Below, in pieces: positions 6,554 to 52,550 of a stretch of 64,000 nucleotides of DNA. Source of the DNA: Thermotoga sp. Mc24 (GTDB lineage: Bacteria; Thermotogota; Thermotogae; Thermotogales; Thermotogaceae); contig NZ_JSFH01000012.1 in assembly GCF_000784835.1 (NCBI RefSeq), forward strand, positions 1-64,000. Reading direction: 5' to 3'. Below the pieces are notes generated by a model, which was not told the DNA's origin, did not search any database, and saw nothing but the letters and a program-made list of their open reading frames with translations. The position numbers were made by a program, and so were the translations under genes. Each line of letters starts with the position of its first letter. The first letter of the stretch is position 1.

Positions 6554-7750
6554 ATGCCCAAAATCTGGACTGAAAAGATCTTCGACGATCCGGAAATCTA
6601 CATTTTGAGAATAGACGACGATCAGATAAAGTACTTCGAGGCGGTTTGGGAAATACCCGAAGGGATCAGCTACAACGCGTACCTTGTGAAGCTGAATGAT
6701 GCAAACGTTCTGATAGACGGCTGGAAGAAGAACTACACGAAAGAGTTCATCGAGACTCTGTCCAGGATCGTTGATCCTAAGGAGATCACGCACATCATCG
6801 TGAACCACACCGAGCCGGACCACAGCGGATCTCTCCCTGCAACGCTCGAAGCGATTGGTCACGATGTGGAAATAATCGCTTCGAACTTCGGAAAAAGACT
6901 CCTCGAAGGATTCTACGGCATAAAAGACGTGACTGTCGTGAAGGATGGAGAAGAGAAAGAAATCGGAGGGAAAAAATTCAAATTCGTCATGACTCCCTGG
7001 CTTCACTGGCCCGACACGATGGTGACGTATCTTGATGGAATTCTCTTCGGCTGTGATGTGGGCGGTGGATACCTGCTCCCAGAGACTCTGGACGACTCAA
7101 ACGAGAGCGTTGTGGAAAGATACCTTCCCCACGTCACAAAGTACATTGTCACGGTGATAGGACATTACAAGAATTACATCCTCGAAGGTGCGGAAAAGCT
7201 CTCCAGTCTGAAGATAAAGGCGCTCCTTCCAGGGCACGGACTGATCTGGAAGAAAGATCCTCAGAGACTTTTGAATCATTACGTGAGTGTCGCGAAGGGT
7301 GAACCGAAAAAAGGAAAAGTCACGGTGATCTACGATTCCATGTACGGCTTCGTCGAGAACGTGATGAAGAAGGCGATCGACTCTCTCAAGGAGAAAGGTT
7401 TCACACCGGTTGTGTACAAATTCTCCGACGAAGAGAGACCCGCGATCAGCGAGATCTTGAAAGACATCCCGGACAGTGAAGCACTGATCTTCGGTGTTTC
7501 TACCTACGAAGCAGAGATACATCCACTCATGAGATTCACCCTTCTCGAGATAATAGATAAAGTGAACTACGAAAAATCCGTCCTCGTCTTTGGAGTGCAC
7601 GGCTGGGCTCCATCCGTAGAAAGAACAGCGGGAGAGCTTCTGAAAGAAACGAAGTTCAGAATTCTCTCTTTCACGGAGATAAAAGGTTCAAACATGGATG
7701 AGAAGAAGATCGAAGAGGCGATATCTCTTCTCAAAAAAGAACTGGAGTGA
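6554..7750 (+). CDS. fprA: Flavodiiron protein (oxygen reductase FprA)
   Basis: This cytoplasmic enzyme reduces oxygen to water (family members may also reduce nitric oxide) with electrons from rubredoxin. The N-terminal metallo-beta-lactamase-like domain has the diiron motif HTEPDHSGSLPA and PWLHWPDTMVTYLDG. The C-terminal flavodoxin domain begins at KVTVIYDSMYGFVENVM, near residue 255. I chose ATG 6554 over 6539 because GGAGGTG at 6541-6547 overlaps the earlier ATG and is well spaced for the later one. This gives 398 residues, the length I recall for the T. maritima protein. It is followed six bases later by its probable redox partner. In T. maritima the pair acts with a rubredoxin encoded elsewhere in an oxygen-reduction chain. 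Confidence 0.95.
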   Translation: MPKIWTEKIFDDPEIYILRIDDDQIKYFEAVWEIPEGISYNAYLVKLNDANVLIDGWKKNYTKEFIETLSRIVDPKEITHIIVNHTEPDHSGSLPATLEAIGHDVEIIASNFGKRLLEGFYGIKDVTVVKDGEEKEIGGKKFKFVMTPWLHWPDTMVTYLDGILFGCDVGGGYLLPETLDDSNESVVERYLPHVTKYIVTVIGHYKNYILEGAEKLSSLKIKALLPGHGLIWKKDPQRLLNHYVSVAKGEPKKGKVTVIYDSMYGFVENVMKKAIDSLKEKGFTPVVYKFSDEERPAISEILKDIPDSEALIFGVSTYEAEIHPLMRFTLLEIIDKVNYEKSVLVFGVHGWAPSVERTAGELLKETKFRILSFTEIKGSNMDEKKIEEAISLLKKELE

Positions 7751-32224: not shown

Positions 32225-32233
32225 ATTATAACA
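32225..32233 (-). promoter_or_regulatory. Extended -10 promoter before rel
   Basis: On the minus strand TGTTATAAT lies between the 3' end of rnpB (32236) and the GTG of rel (32190). No good -35 box is seen, which fits an extended -10 promoter. It would give rel a start independent of rnpB. Confidence 0.5.
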
Positions 32234-32235
32234 TG

Positions 32236-32569
32236 GGAGAGGAGCGTAAGCCGGATTCTGTCGTGGGCGGTCATCAATCTGGGGTGTGCGTTACCACACA
32301 CCTCGAGCGGCCAACCCGGGGGAATAGGGGGAGCGACCCAACCCCCTGCTCGGCCTTGCTCCAGGTGGGGGTTGCCAAGCCGCCGGGTTGCCCCGACGCT
32401 GGTGGGCTCTTACCCCACCGTTCCACCCTTGCCCTAAGCGGGCGGTTTTCTTCTCTATGGCCCTGTCCGAGGGTCACCCCTCCCGGGCGTTACCCGGCAC
32501 CCTGCTCCAGAGTCCGGACTTTCCTCGGGAAGCGCGAGTGTGCGCCCCCGCGACCGCCTGCTCCTCTCC
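32236..32569 (-). ncRNA. rnpB: RNase P RNA
   Basis: This is the catalytic RNA of RNase P, which trims tRNA 5' ends. On the minus strand it begins GGAGAGGAGCAGGCGG and ends CCGGCTTACGCTCCTCTCC; these pair as the terminal helix P1. Conserved elements include GAGGAAAGTCCGGACTC (CR-I), CAGGGCCATAGAGAAGAAAACC, GGTAAGAGCCCACC and AGATTGATGACCGCCC (CR-V) before ACAGAATCCGGCTTA. It is a type A RNA of about 334 bases, like that of T. maritima but with several differences from the MSB8 sequence I remember. No intrinsic terminator follows it. Its 5' end lies five bases after the EamA gene stop. Confidence 0.97.
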
Positions 32570-49160: not shown

Positions 49161-49778
49161 TCACTCCACCTCTAAGGTTACAGTCACAGAACTCGCTTCC
49201 ATTGTATCTTCTTCAAGATCCATTGTCACTTTCTCTGCCTCCATCTCCAGATCTTTTTCTTTATCCTTCAACCTCACACTGTGGAGGAGCTCTATGATAC
49301 CGTCTTTTCTTCTGTAAACCACCTCTTCGGAACTTACCTCAACTGAACCTTTCAGAATCCTCACCTCTCCAACTCCATGAAAAACGTCTTTTTCAAGATC
49401 GAAGGTGATTTGTTCGCACTCTATATAGATCGTTTCCGTGCTGGTCTTATCGATGAACTCACCTTCCACACTCCCTGTGATGGTTCCCACTCTGGTCTCC
49501 ACATCGTAAATGAGACTGTCTCCTTTCAGTTTCCCGTCTTCAAGGGTCACAGTCACAGATGAACTCGCTTCTGTTATTCTCCACTTTCCACTCAGTTTTT
49601 TCACGATCAAACTCTCGGCAGTTAGAGTGAATTTCTCTTCTTCGATCTTGAGAACAACGTTTCCGGAATACTCTATCCTTTCATCGGAAGGTTTCACAAA
49701 ATCCGCCTTTATGTGAATCGTTTTCGAAAATGCGAGAAGACTCACAAGGATGAAGAATGTGATCAACGATTTTTTCAC
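49161..49778 (-). CDS. LptA/OstA-like periplasmic protein
   Basis: This 205-residue protein has a signal peptide (KKSLITFFILVSLLAFS). The rest is made of repeated beta-strand pairs typical of the OstA/LptA/LptC jellyroll: IEYSGNVVLKIEEEKFTLTAESLIVKK, DGKLKGDSLIYDVET, VEVSSEEVVYRRKDG. In proteobacteria such proteins carry lipopolysaccharide across the periplasm. Thermotoga has an outer toga without known LPS, so the ligand is open. I chose GTG 49778 with GGAGGTG five bases upstream; the longer frame lies in the patatin gene. It abuts the CCA gene. Confidence 0.82.
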   Translation of the reverse strand: MKKSLITFFILVSLLAFSKTIHIKADFVKPSDERIEYSGNVVLKIEEEKFTLTAESLIVKKLSGKWRITEASSSVTVTLEDGKLKGDSLIYDVETRVGTITGSVEGEFIDKTSTETIYIECEQITFDLEKDVFHGVGEVRILKGSVEVSSEEVVYRRKDGIIELLHSVRLKDKEKDLEMEAEKVTMDLEEDTMEASSVTVTLEVE

Positions 49779-50521
49779 ACAAACACCTCCTCGAAGAATC
49801 TGGGAAACTCTTCGTAAGCGCGTCTCGTTGTAGAAACCGGCGAAAGGGAAGAGCACGATATCCTCAAACACTTAGCTTTTTTTGTTCTTTCTCTCTCCAG
49901 ATGCTTTGTTCTTGCTGTTGTCGATAAAAACAGGTACTCGAGTGCGTTTCTTGGAGAATGCGTTTCTTTTTCTATATCGAACAGGACCATAAGTTCTCCT
50001 TCGGGAACTCCCGTGATCCAAGTGATGGGGACGTACCTGTCTTCGTACGGACGGTAGAGTATCGGAAAGGAAAGAGAAATCTTGAGCGCTTTTCTCAGAT
50101 CGTCACCCTCTTTGAAGACCACTTCCTTTCCTTCGAAAAGATCGAAAGCCCAGATTTCAAGACCTCCTGGGATTTTCTGCGCAGGGAACAGCGAATCTAT
50201 GTACCTGTACAGGCGCTCGTGATTTCGAACACCGTTCAACGTGTCACCGATTCTCATCAGTATCCGAAGAGCATCGAGCATAGAAATCTGGTCTATACCA
50301 TTCGTGAAGAATGGATCGAGAAGTTTCTCAATGTTCTTCCATTCCTTCACCAAGATGGAGTATGTCCTGTTAGCAGATCTTGTGAGGAAAAAAAGAGCGC
50401 AGGGAATAGAAGAAATCCCACAGCACCTCGCTGTGAAATCGACTTTCGAATCTTTTAAAAATTTCAGCACTCCTGTAACTCCCAGATAAGCACCGCTGTC
50501 CCCACCGAACGCGATTACCAG
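49775..50521 (-). CDS. Degenerate patatin-like protein, apparent CTG start
   Basis: The open frame is patatin-like from codon 50521, reading LVIAFGGDSGAYLGVTGVLKFL, which matches the conserved N-terminus of patatins. The first ATG/GTG/TTG is GTG 50470, which would remove this core strand, and an in-frame stop lies a few codons upstream of 50521. CTG 50521 overlaps the preceding patatin's stop and lies about ten bases after GGGAGTGA, so a CTG start is likely. The catalytic motif GXSXG appears as CCGISSIPCAL (last Gly changed), and DGG appears as EDRYVPI. It aligns by eye with the neighbour (ILYRPYEDRYVPI with YFEPIWIGGTPCLDGG), so it is probably a diverged duplicate, perhaps inactive. Confidence 0.72.
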   Translation of the reverse strand: MVIAFGGDSGAYLGVTGVLKFLKDSKVDFTARCCGISSIPCALFFLTRSANRTYSILVKEWKNIEKLLDPFFTNGIDQISMLDALRILMRIGDTLNGVRNHERLYRYIDSLFPAQKIPGGLEIWAFDLFEGKEVVFKEGDDLRKALKISLSFPILYRPYEDRYVPITWITGVPEGELMVLFDIEKETHSPRNALEYLFLSTTARTKHLERERTKKAKCLRISCSSLSPVSTTRRAYEEFPRFFEEVFV

Positions 50522-51279
50522 GGTAAAATCACTCCCTTCAAATTTCTAAGTGCTTTTCTGTAGATTTCTTCGTACTTATCGAAAGCGTTCCAGGACTCGT
50601 TCACATCGTGTATCACCACAAAATCCGCCTTTGAAAGCTCTTCCCTCTCCAGGAGTATCTCCTTCCATCTGTCCATTGCAAAGAACATTTCGAAATGGTT
50701 TTTAAATCCTTCTTTTTTCTCTCTGTTGAAAGCGGAAGCCACAACGAAATCCGCTCCGAGTTCTCGTGCCTGAGAAACCGGTGTGGGTGCAAGAACCCCA
50801 CCGTCCAGACAGGGAGTACCTCCTATCCAGATCGGCTCGAAATATCCCGGTACAGAACTGCTCGCCACGATGGCATCTATCAGAAAGCCTTCTGTCACAA
50901 GGAGAGAATCCAAGTTTTCTGTATCGAAAATCACAACACCGAGTGTTTTCTTGCAGTCAGAGAATTTCTTTCTACCAAAAACCTCCTTGAGAACAGAAAA
51001 CAGAAGATCTGCTTTAAAAAGAGAACGTTGAAACAACCCTCTCCAGGTGTTCTCCGATTCCATCTTTTCCAGATCCTCAAAGTGTTTCTTCATGAGAGAA
51101 AAGGTGACATCCTTCACCAGAGCGGGATCTCCGTAGAGTGCGTACAGTCCCCCTACGATGGCTCCTATCGATGATCCAGTGACCACATCGAACACGTCCC
51201 CAGATCTTTCCAGGAAAGCAATGTGAGCCGCTCCTTTGACTCCTCCCGCCGCGAACGCTACTCCTTTCACCACATTCAT
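50515..51279 (-). CDS. Patatin-like phospholipase
   Basis: This 254-residue serine lipid hydrolase has the oxyanion glycine motif FAAGGVKGAAHIAFLE, the nucleophile GSSIGAIVGGLYAL near residue 36 and the catalytic aspartate in CLDGGVLAPTPVSQARELGAD. All parts of the Ser-Asp dyad are intact. It probably acts on phospholipid acyl chains in the envelope. The ATG overlaps the stop of the coiled-coil protein gene by four bases; the ribosome site is weak (GGGGCG), which suggests coupling. Confidence 0.9.
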   Translation of the reverse strand: MNVVKGVAFAAGGVKGAAHIAFLERSGDVFDVVTGSSIGAIVGGLYALYGDPALVKDVTFSLMKKHFEDLEKMESENTWRGLFQRSLFKADLLFSVLKEVFGRKKFSDCKKTLGVVIFDTENLDSLLVTEGFLIDAIVASSSVPGYFEPIWIGGTPCLDGGVLAPTPVSQARELGADFVVASAFNREKKEGFKNHFEMFFAMDRWKEILLEREELSKADFVVIHDVNESWNAFDKYEEIYRKALRNLKGVILPW

Positions 51280-52490
51280 CGCCCCGCAAGAAGAAGGATT
51301 CCCAGAAGAAGAGCAAGCGCTCCTGCACCGATCATCATCAACGTGCCGGTGTCCATCTGGAGCGAAGATTTCTCTTTTTCTTCCACTTTCTGAGAGAGTA
51401 CTGTCAGGTCCGAAGAGAGTCTTTCGATCCTCTTTGAAAGATCGATCACCTGCTTTTTGAGATCCTGGATTTCACTCTCCATCGTCGTTCTGTTTTGTTG
51501 ATCTTCAGCAACGGATTCTTCCAATCCGGAGAAACGTTTATTCAGGTTTTCCAGATCACTTTTCAGGTTTTCCACGCTGGACTCCAGTGTTTGAAATTTT
51601 GTTGTCATTTGAGAGATACTCTTTTCCAGATCAGAAACTCTCTCCTCCTGAGTGGAGATTTTGCTGGAAACAGCAGAAACTTTCTGATTCACTTCGTTCT
51701 TCAGATTCACCACATCCGAGGAAAGTGAGTCCAATTCTTTGCGAAGTTGATCCAGTTGTTCTGAAAGGCCTCCTGTTCGTCCTTTCAACATGAGGATGTC
51801 TTCGCCTGCGTTCTGTTTCCAGGTGAGAAGATTGCGCGTATCTGAACTGAGCTGAGTGATTGCTTCTTCAAGAGAAGCTATCTCTCTTGACACGTTCTCC
51901 AGATTCTTTTCCAAAAGAGTCAGCCTTGAGGAATTCTGTTGTGCACTCTCTTCAAGCTTCTTAAGGTTTTTTTCGACAACGTCTATTCTCCTCAGTATCT
52001 CCGAATCTATCCCGGCTGTTTCCTGCTTGAAGCTGGTGAAAGCCAGCGAGAGATTGTTGAACGCTTCCTCCAGAGAATCAGCTTTTGTCTTCAACTCTAA
52101 AACTTCACTCGCCGTGGAGGTAATTTCGAGTACAGCAGAATCAACTCGAGAGTTCAAAGAATTGTAGTTCTTTTCCAGATTAGAGGTTCGTTCATCGAGA
52201 GCGATCGTGGCCGTCTTTACAATATCGAGCTCATCGAGTAGCGGGAGTTTTTCCTTGAATTTTTCAAGTTCGAATCTCATGACCAATCTGTAGATGTACT
52301 GCGCTATGTCGTAGCGAGTCACAAGAAGCGCTCCCCTGAAATTCCCCTTGTCATCAAGTTCCATGATGCTCGCTTTCACCACGTAATTCACAGCGTCGAA
52401 AAACGGAGATCCTGGCTCTAAATCCTTTATGTTCTGTGAAAGCAGGAGAACGCTCATCACTGTCAACCCAAAAACAAGTATCTTTTTCAA
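51276..52490 (-). CDS. Omp-alpha-like envelope spacer protein
   Basis: This 404-residue protein has a signal peptide (KKILVFGLTVMSVLLLSQN). A short SLH-like domain follows (FFDAVNYVVKASIMELDDKGNFRGALLVTRYDIAQYIYRLV). Then comes a very long coiled coil (about 85-375, heptads such as LEKNLENVSREIASLEEAI), and a C-terminal membrane helix (MMIGAGALALLLGILLLAG). This is the layout of Thermotoga Omp-alpha, a rod that spaces the toga from the cell. It is shorter than a typical Omp-alpha, so I call it Omp-alpha-like. The site GGAGGTGA selects TTG 52490 over TTG 52511. Confidence 0.85.
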   Translation of the reverse strand: MKKILVFGLTVMSVLLLSQNIKDLEPGSPFFDAVNYVVKASIMELDDKGNFRGALLVTRYDIAQYIYRLVMRFELEKFKEKLPLLDELDIVKTATIALDERTSNLEKNYNSLNSRVDSAVLEITSTASEVLELKTKADSLEEAFNNLSLAFTSFKQETAGIDSEILRRIDVVEKNLKKLEESAQQNSSRLTLLEKNLENVSREIASLEEAITQLSSDTRNLLTWKQNAGEDILMLKGRTGGLSEQLDQLRKELDSLSSDVVNLKNEVNQKVSAVSSKISTQEERVSDLEKSISQMTTKFQTLESSVENLKSDLENLNKRFSGLEESVAEDQQNRTTMESEIQDLKKQVIDLSKRIERLSSDLTVLSQKVEEKEKSSLQMDTGTLMMIGAGALALLLGILLLAGR

Positions 52491-52550
52491 AGACTTCACC
52501 TCCCTCTTCAACCTTAAAACATCCTTGAAAACACCCCGTGAACAACCGGT

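Follow-up and report, generated by a model that had tools for sequence, protein, structure and literature searches.

A degenerate patatin paralogue without a conventional start codon, in tandem with an intact patatin-like phospholipase gene in Thermotoga

The patatin tandem and its neighbours

The window, a 64,000-nucleotide stretch of DNA from Thermotoga sp. Mc24, contains an intact patatin-like phospholipase gene (gene A) followed directly by a gene for a degenerate patatin-fold protein (gene B), flanked by an SLH-domain coiled-coil protein gene and an Lpt-like gene (Table 1). Gene B sits in the −1 frame relative to gene A. Its frame opens after a TAG stop with AAA TTT GAA GGG AGT GAT TTT ACC CTG(50521) GTA ATC GCG, and re-reading it reproduced the reading and coordinates of B proposed in an earlier sequence-only reading of this DNA. 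As that reading had claimed, there is no ATG, GTG or TTG between the upstream in-frame stop and GTG 50470, and CTG 50521 overlaps the stop of A (TAA at 50517-50515, within CTGGTAA). The 17 codons ahead of GTG 50470 translate as LVIAFGGDSGAYLGVTG.

Table 1. Features of the patatin tandem and other features of the window referred to in the text
Feature	Position	Strand	Remarks
Lpt-like (LptA/LptC/OstA-type) gene directly after B	49161..49778	-	start overlaps B stop
Gene B, degenerate patatin-fold protein	49775..50521	-	248 codons counted from CTG
GTG, first conventional start codon of B (codon 18 from CTG)	50468..50470	-	improbable as start; lacks a usable Shine-Dalgarno
Gene A, intact patatin-like phospholipase (GSSIG, DGG)	50515..51279	-	PF01734 E 1.8e-33
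Proposed CTG start codon of B	50519..50521	-	overlaps A stop as CTGGTAA
TTT codon where four sister Thermotoga species have an ATG start	50525..50527	-
Shine-Dalgarno-like GGGAGTGA	50529..50536	-	core GGAG at 50532-50535; 9 nt (aligned) from CTG
SLH-domain coiled-coil protein gene immediately preceding A	51276..52511	-	C-terminal hydrophobic stretch
RNase P RNA class A (Rfam RF00010)	32232-32569	-	open frames overlap

We searched 61 genomes for B and found it in 32. The set of 28 loci analysed below consists of our own locus and 27 relatives; it leaves out four weak matches without loci and two loci (L030, L031) that match B only partially and contain no A. Second weak matches are present in G031, G029, G019 and G027, and a later match in G069 (L131), with A and B adjacent, falls outside the 28. 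These are whole-genome searches; a search of a genome collection with the B protein, from which near records may be missing, returned no confirmed relative.

Gene A directly precedes B in 28/28 loci, so that the lasting pairing of an active patatin with a probably non-catalytic paralogue, suggested from the sequence alone, is supported. Both catalytic motifs of A are present in all 28, and A matches the RssA model NF007623, below the cut-off of that model. The start codons called for A are ATG (22), TTG (4) and GTG (2); in a Shine-Dalgarno scan, two of the non-ATG calls and the ATG calls of L002-L004 have no Shine-Dalgarno support. Among 18 larger regions fetched, the Lpt-like gene follows B in 16 (all except L038 and L048), and A has the SLH coiled-coil gene ahead of it in 11 (six Thermotoga, five of family f3). 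The SLH gene, A, B and the Lpt-like gene resemble an envelope-related operon conserved in several genera. L048, from G008 (another genus of the same family), encodes a B-like degenerate patatin at 6788-7561 and contains no A in 12 kb. Literature searches on the genes that we take to be numbered TM0711-TM0714 found no papers.

Motifs and predicted fold of the B protein

Ten residues of B are invariant in the 28 homologues (G6, G7, Y12, C33, G35, S37, P40, P153, G171 and R204), position 176 is always acidic, and all 28 carry the motif CxGxSx[ILV]P. The motif in our own B reads G-I-S-S-I-P: the serine of the GXSXG nucleophile elbow defined by PF01734 is retained and the second glycine is gone. 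The catalytic Asp of DG[GA], also part of the PF01734 definition, is absent from B (0/28 versus 28/28 in A). The sequence-only reading had described the catalytic motifs of B as eroded. Both GXSXG and DGG are indeed altered, but the picture of erosion fails, since a whole wider subfamily carries the altered motifs as a fixed signature (28/28). The conserved motif together with the family-wide absence of DG[GA] points to a settled, altered subfamily and not a decaying copy. As all 28 B proteins keep the serine, some activity is possible.

Bacterial patatin-like phospholipases (PF01734; RssA-type; PlpD) have the fold in common with B. A lies well above the Pfam cut-off, whereas B, unlike these enzymes, does not reach it (13.4 bits, curated cut-off 27.7, E 0.093), matches no NCBIfam model and is without the catalytic Asp. 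A structure predicted from 17 sequences (mean pLDDT 83, pTM 0.83) places a strand at residues 2-5, with pLDDT 90-95 over residues 1-20. Its best structural match is PlpD (Foldseek E 3.1e-9), with which 219 residues align (Z 22.7, rmsd 3.1), and B is accordingly predicted to have the patatin fold.

The upstream codons and the start site of gene B

The 17 codons ahead of GTG 50470 encode three of the invariant residues (G6, G7 and Y12). Three Thermotoga genomes of the seven (our own, G004 and G006) have a B without a usual start, and comparison of our own with L003 and L004 over these codons gives dS of 0.46 and 0.34 with dN of 0.057 and 0.057; for the third pair dS is 0.07 and dN is 0. The remainder of B has dN/dS values of 0.098, 0.122 and 0.121 among the same three genomes, and there is no stop codon inside their B frames. 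These comparisons indicate that B is a real gene under selection and that the stretch before GTG 50470 codes for protein, placing coding sequence upstream of every ATG, GTG and TTG of the frame. The earlier claim that the 17 codons encode the patatin N-terminus thus agrees with the invariant residues, the selection and the predicted first strand.

A window-wide control counted synonymous (pS) and replacement (pN) change ahead of the first usual start. Sixty-one frames were kept, of which 30 had at least six aligned pre-start codons in comparisons with two Thermotoga relatives. Among these 30, only B (pS 0.71, pN 0.16 in both comparisons) and frame 3-629, which is cut off by the window start, reached a pS of at least 0.45 in both. 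Several other frames also had pS above pN in both comparisons: frame 33388, but over eight codons and with low pS; frame 6443, whose codons before the start fall in a promoter and Shine-Dalgarno region; frames 30046 and 32328, which overlap or adjoin the RNase P RNA; and frames 62947 and 63717, apparently opposite-strand frames near the window end. For frame 44331, pS/pN was 0.45/0.35 and 0.39/0.37. A first control, based on stop-to-stop similarity only, was dropped as inflated by overlapping and opposite-strand frames.

The 49 starts in the window that have a clear Shine-Dalgarno sequence are spaced 4 to 14 nt from it (scan range 3 to 14), and 4/49 lie at 9. The proposed CTG of B, at an aligned spacing of 9 from GGAG, falls within this range, which supports the earlier suggestion that it is spaced for this element. 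Shine-Dalgarno binding in T. maritima is described in PMC3636130 as strongest 4-6 nt before the start, a distance measured differently from ours. In the 28 loci, which are related and so do not give independent counts, the codon at the CTG position is TTG (19), CTG (7), ATG (1) or TTC (1). Shine-Dalgarno spacing favours TTG in 16/28 loci and ATG in five, leaves CTG as the sole choice in three and is ambiguous in four, where an ATG lies at aligned spacing 3 and a CTG at 9. In total, B has its own ATG or TTG start, 4-11 nt (aligned) from the Shine-Dalgarno sequence, in 21/28 homologues. The weak start is not universal, since five core B genes carry a well-spaced ATG.

The four ambiguous cases are the sister species G001, G002, G003 and G005, which read ATG GCC CTG, with the ATG two codons ahead of the CTG. 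Their start could be either codon; an aligned spacing of 3, as for this ATG, is absent among the 49 window starts. The ATG appears to have been lost in the clade of our own genome. The sequence-only reading had named a conventional start in another strain, one leaving the upstream stretch non-coding, as evidence against itself. A conventional start is present in the four sisters, but the upstream reading stays coding there, and the ATG in fact backs that reading because it makes the stretch coding. Both the CTG and the motif substitutions, which had been proposed for comparison among strains, are kept in 3/3 genomes of the close clade. Conservation of the CTG is weak evidence for a start, as its bases also serve Pro-Trp codons of A and are partly fixed by them. 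From the spacing and the TTG that 19 homologues carry at this position, we infer that CTG 50521 is the best start of B. CUG is among the non-canonical starts discriminated by E. coli initiation complexes (PMC11497404), and six-frame peptide data for Thermotoga maritima are provided as Table S8 of a multi-omics paper (PMC3636130).

Several other explanations bear on these observations. A gene caller limited to ATG, GTG and TTG would begin B at GTG 50470, the first conventional start of its frame, and across the seven Thermotoga genomes a GTG or TTG is found again at this site or close to it. We find this scarcely credible: the resulting protein would be without the first strand and glycine loop (the predicted model would lose its first strand and half of its first helix), although G6, G7 and Y12 are invariant and codons 1-17 are under purifying selection, and the scan found no usable Shine-Dalgarno sequence for this GTG. 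Decay of B as a pseudogene after loss of the ATG, which is missing in 3/3 genomes of the T. maritima clade, is highly improbable given a dN/dS of about 0.10-0.12 and the uninterrupted frame. It is also very unlikely that a −1 ribosomal frameshift ahead of the A stop yields B exclusively as an A-B fusion. The −1 frame of B relative to A is as this would require, and just after the B-frame stop the heptamer A AAT TTG (50545-50539) fits the slippery pattern; however, L003 and L004 read AAATCTA there and are likewise without a usual start, none of the 28 loci contains a fused A-B frame, and most homologues have the well-spaced ATG or TTG described above.

An active B, a hydrolase or acyltransferase that still starts at CTG and has a changed site with Ser37 kept and another acid or base, would be consistent with the invariance of Ser37, Cys33, Gly35, Pro40 and Arg204 and with the acidic residue at 176. 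We regard it as unlikely, because the DG[GA] Asp is absent throughout the 28 and, in 15 further second-type frames (one of them the core B of L131), GxSxG does not occur at all and DG[GA] occurs only in L107, at the C-terminal end.

The explanation that we favour, and consider rather probable, is that translation of B is coupled to that of A and starts, weakly, at CTG 50521, giving a non-catalytic partner of A. What the comparisons show directly is the missing usual start, the coding N-terminus, selection, the predicted fold, the family-wide motif and the constant tandem with A. B would descend from a duplicated patatin in which the catalytic Asp and the residues usual in the glycine loop disappeared, and these losses make a non-hydrolytic partner of A its most likely role, possibly through physical association. 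Translation would begin at the CTG by the initiator tRNA, aided by GGAG and by ribosomes finishing A at the CTGGTAA overlap. As this start is weak, B would be made in a smaller amount than A. Judging by the SLH and Lpt-like neighbours, envelope phospholipid at the inner membrane is the probable substrate of the pair.

Degenerate second patatins in other families

In 11/20 further stretches around A-like genes (L090, L091, L093, L094, L095, L097, L098, L099, L106, L107 and L108), A is followed by a second frame that looks like a degenerate patatin; of these, L094 and L108 were assigned by eye, L090 by its match to the A model, and L091, L106 and L107 by B-model matches covering part of the protein. 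In the remaining nine, either no such frame follows or the next one is unrelated; some lie at contig ends. The degenerate second patatins of other families are more divergent than B, and GxSxG is absent from all of those that follow A here.

None of the three family f4 genomes found (L098, L099 and L093) has a well-placed usual start in the second gene. No usual start occurs before codon 27 of the frame in L099 or before codon 15 in L093, and at codon 11 a GTG in L098 corresponds to GTT in L099. Between L098 and L099, codons 7-26 have a pS of 0.86 and a pN of 0.02, and codons 1-6 have no synonymous change. The candidate starts, probably ATC (L098, L099) and ATT (L093), lie about 9-10 nt (aligned, hand-counted) behind AAAGGAG, and the sequence changes in a coding-like way from there onward. 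Since families with usual starts exist besides these two, we take the f4 and Thermotoga losses, read without a tree, to be separate events. Loss of the usual start thus seems to have struck the same kind of gene in two separate families, with selection still acting on it.

Rare start codons have precedent in E. coli infC and pcnB, which begin with AUU. B is similar in being a selected gene with a near-cognate start and a Shine-Dalgarno-like sequence upstream, and differs in that its CTG overlaps the stop of an upstream paralogue and in the probable ATC or ATT of the other family. Paralogue pairs of an active enzyme and a pseudo-enzyme are likewise a known general kind, which the A-B tandem resembles in its constancy (28 loci) and in the missing catalytic Asp of B; literature searches, at the level of listings, found no published account of such a pair among patatins. 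Loss of a usual start is very rare by the counts given in one survey of 36 genome triplets, where 61,358 ancestral AUG starts yielded two switches to CUG and one to AUU (PMC5622118).

If the CTG start is right, annotation limited to ATG, GTG and TTG trims a core strand of B in the T. maritima clade, and the A-B tandem, found in a diderm whose envelope is unusual, offers a simple test case for a pseudo-enzyme dosed at its start codon. A broader proposal, which we offer as speculation and consider unlikely, is that Thermotogota keep an ancient unit of an active and a dead patatin, in which the dead member has repeatedly been given poor starts (TTG, CTG, ATC, ATT), its dose following A through coupled initiation and depending on the stringency with which IF3 rejects these codons. 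If so, the turnover of envelope lipids would be coupled to the condition of the translation apparatus. The second-type degenerate patatins of family f5 (L147, L148, L150, L151, L152 and L157), with no A found in their loci, have ATG at the start position.
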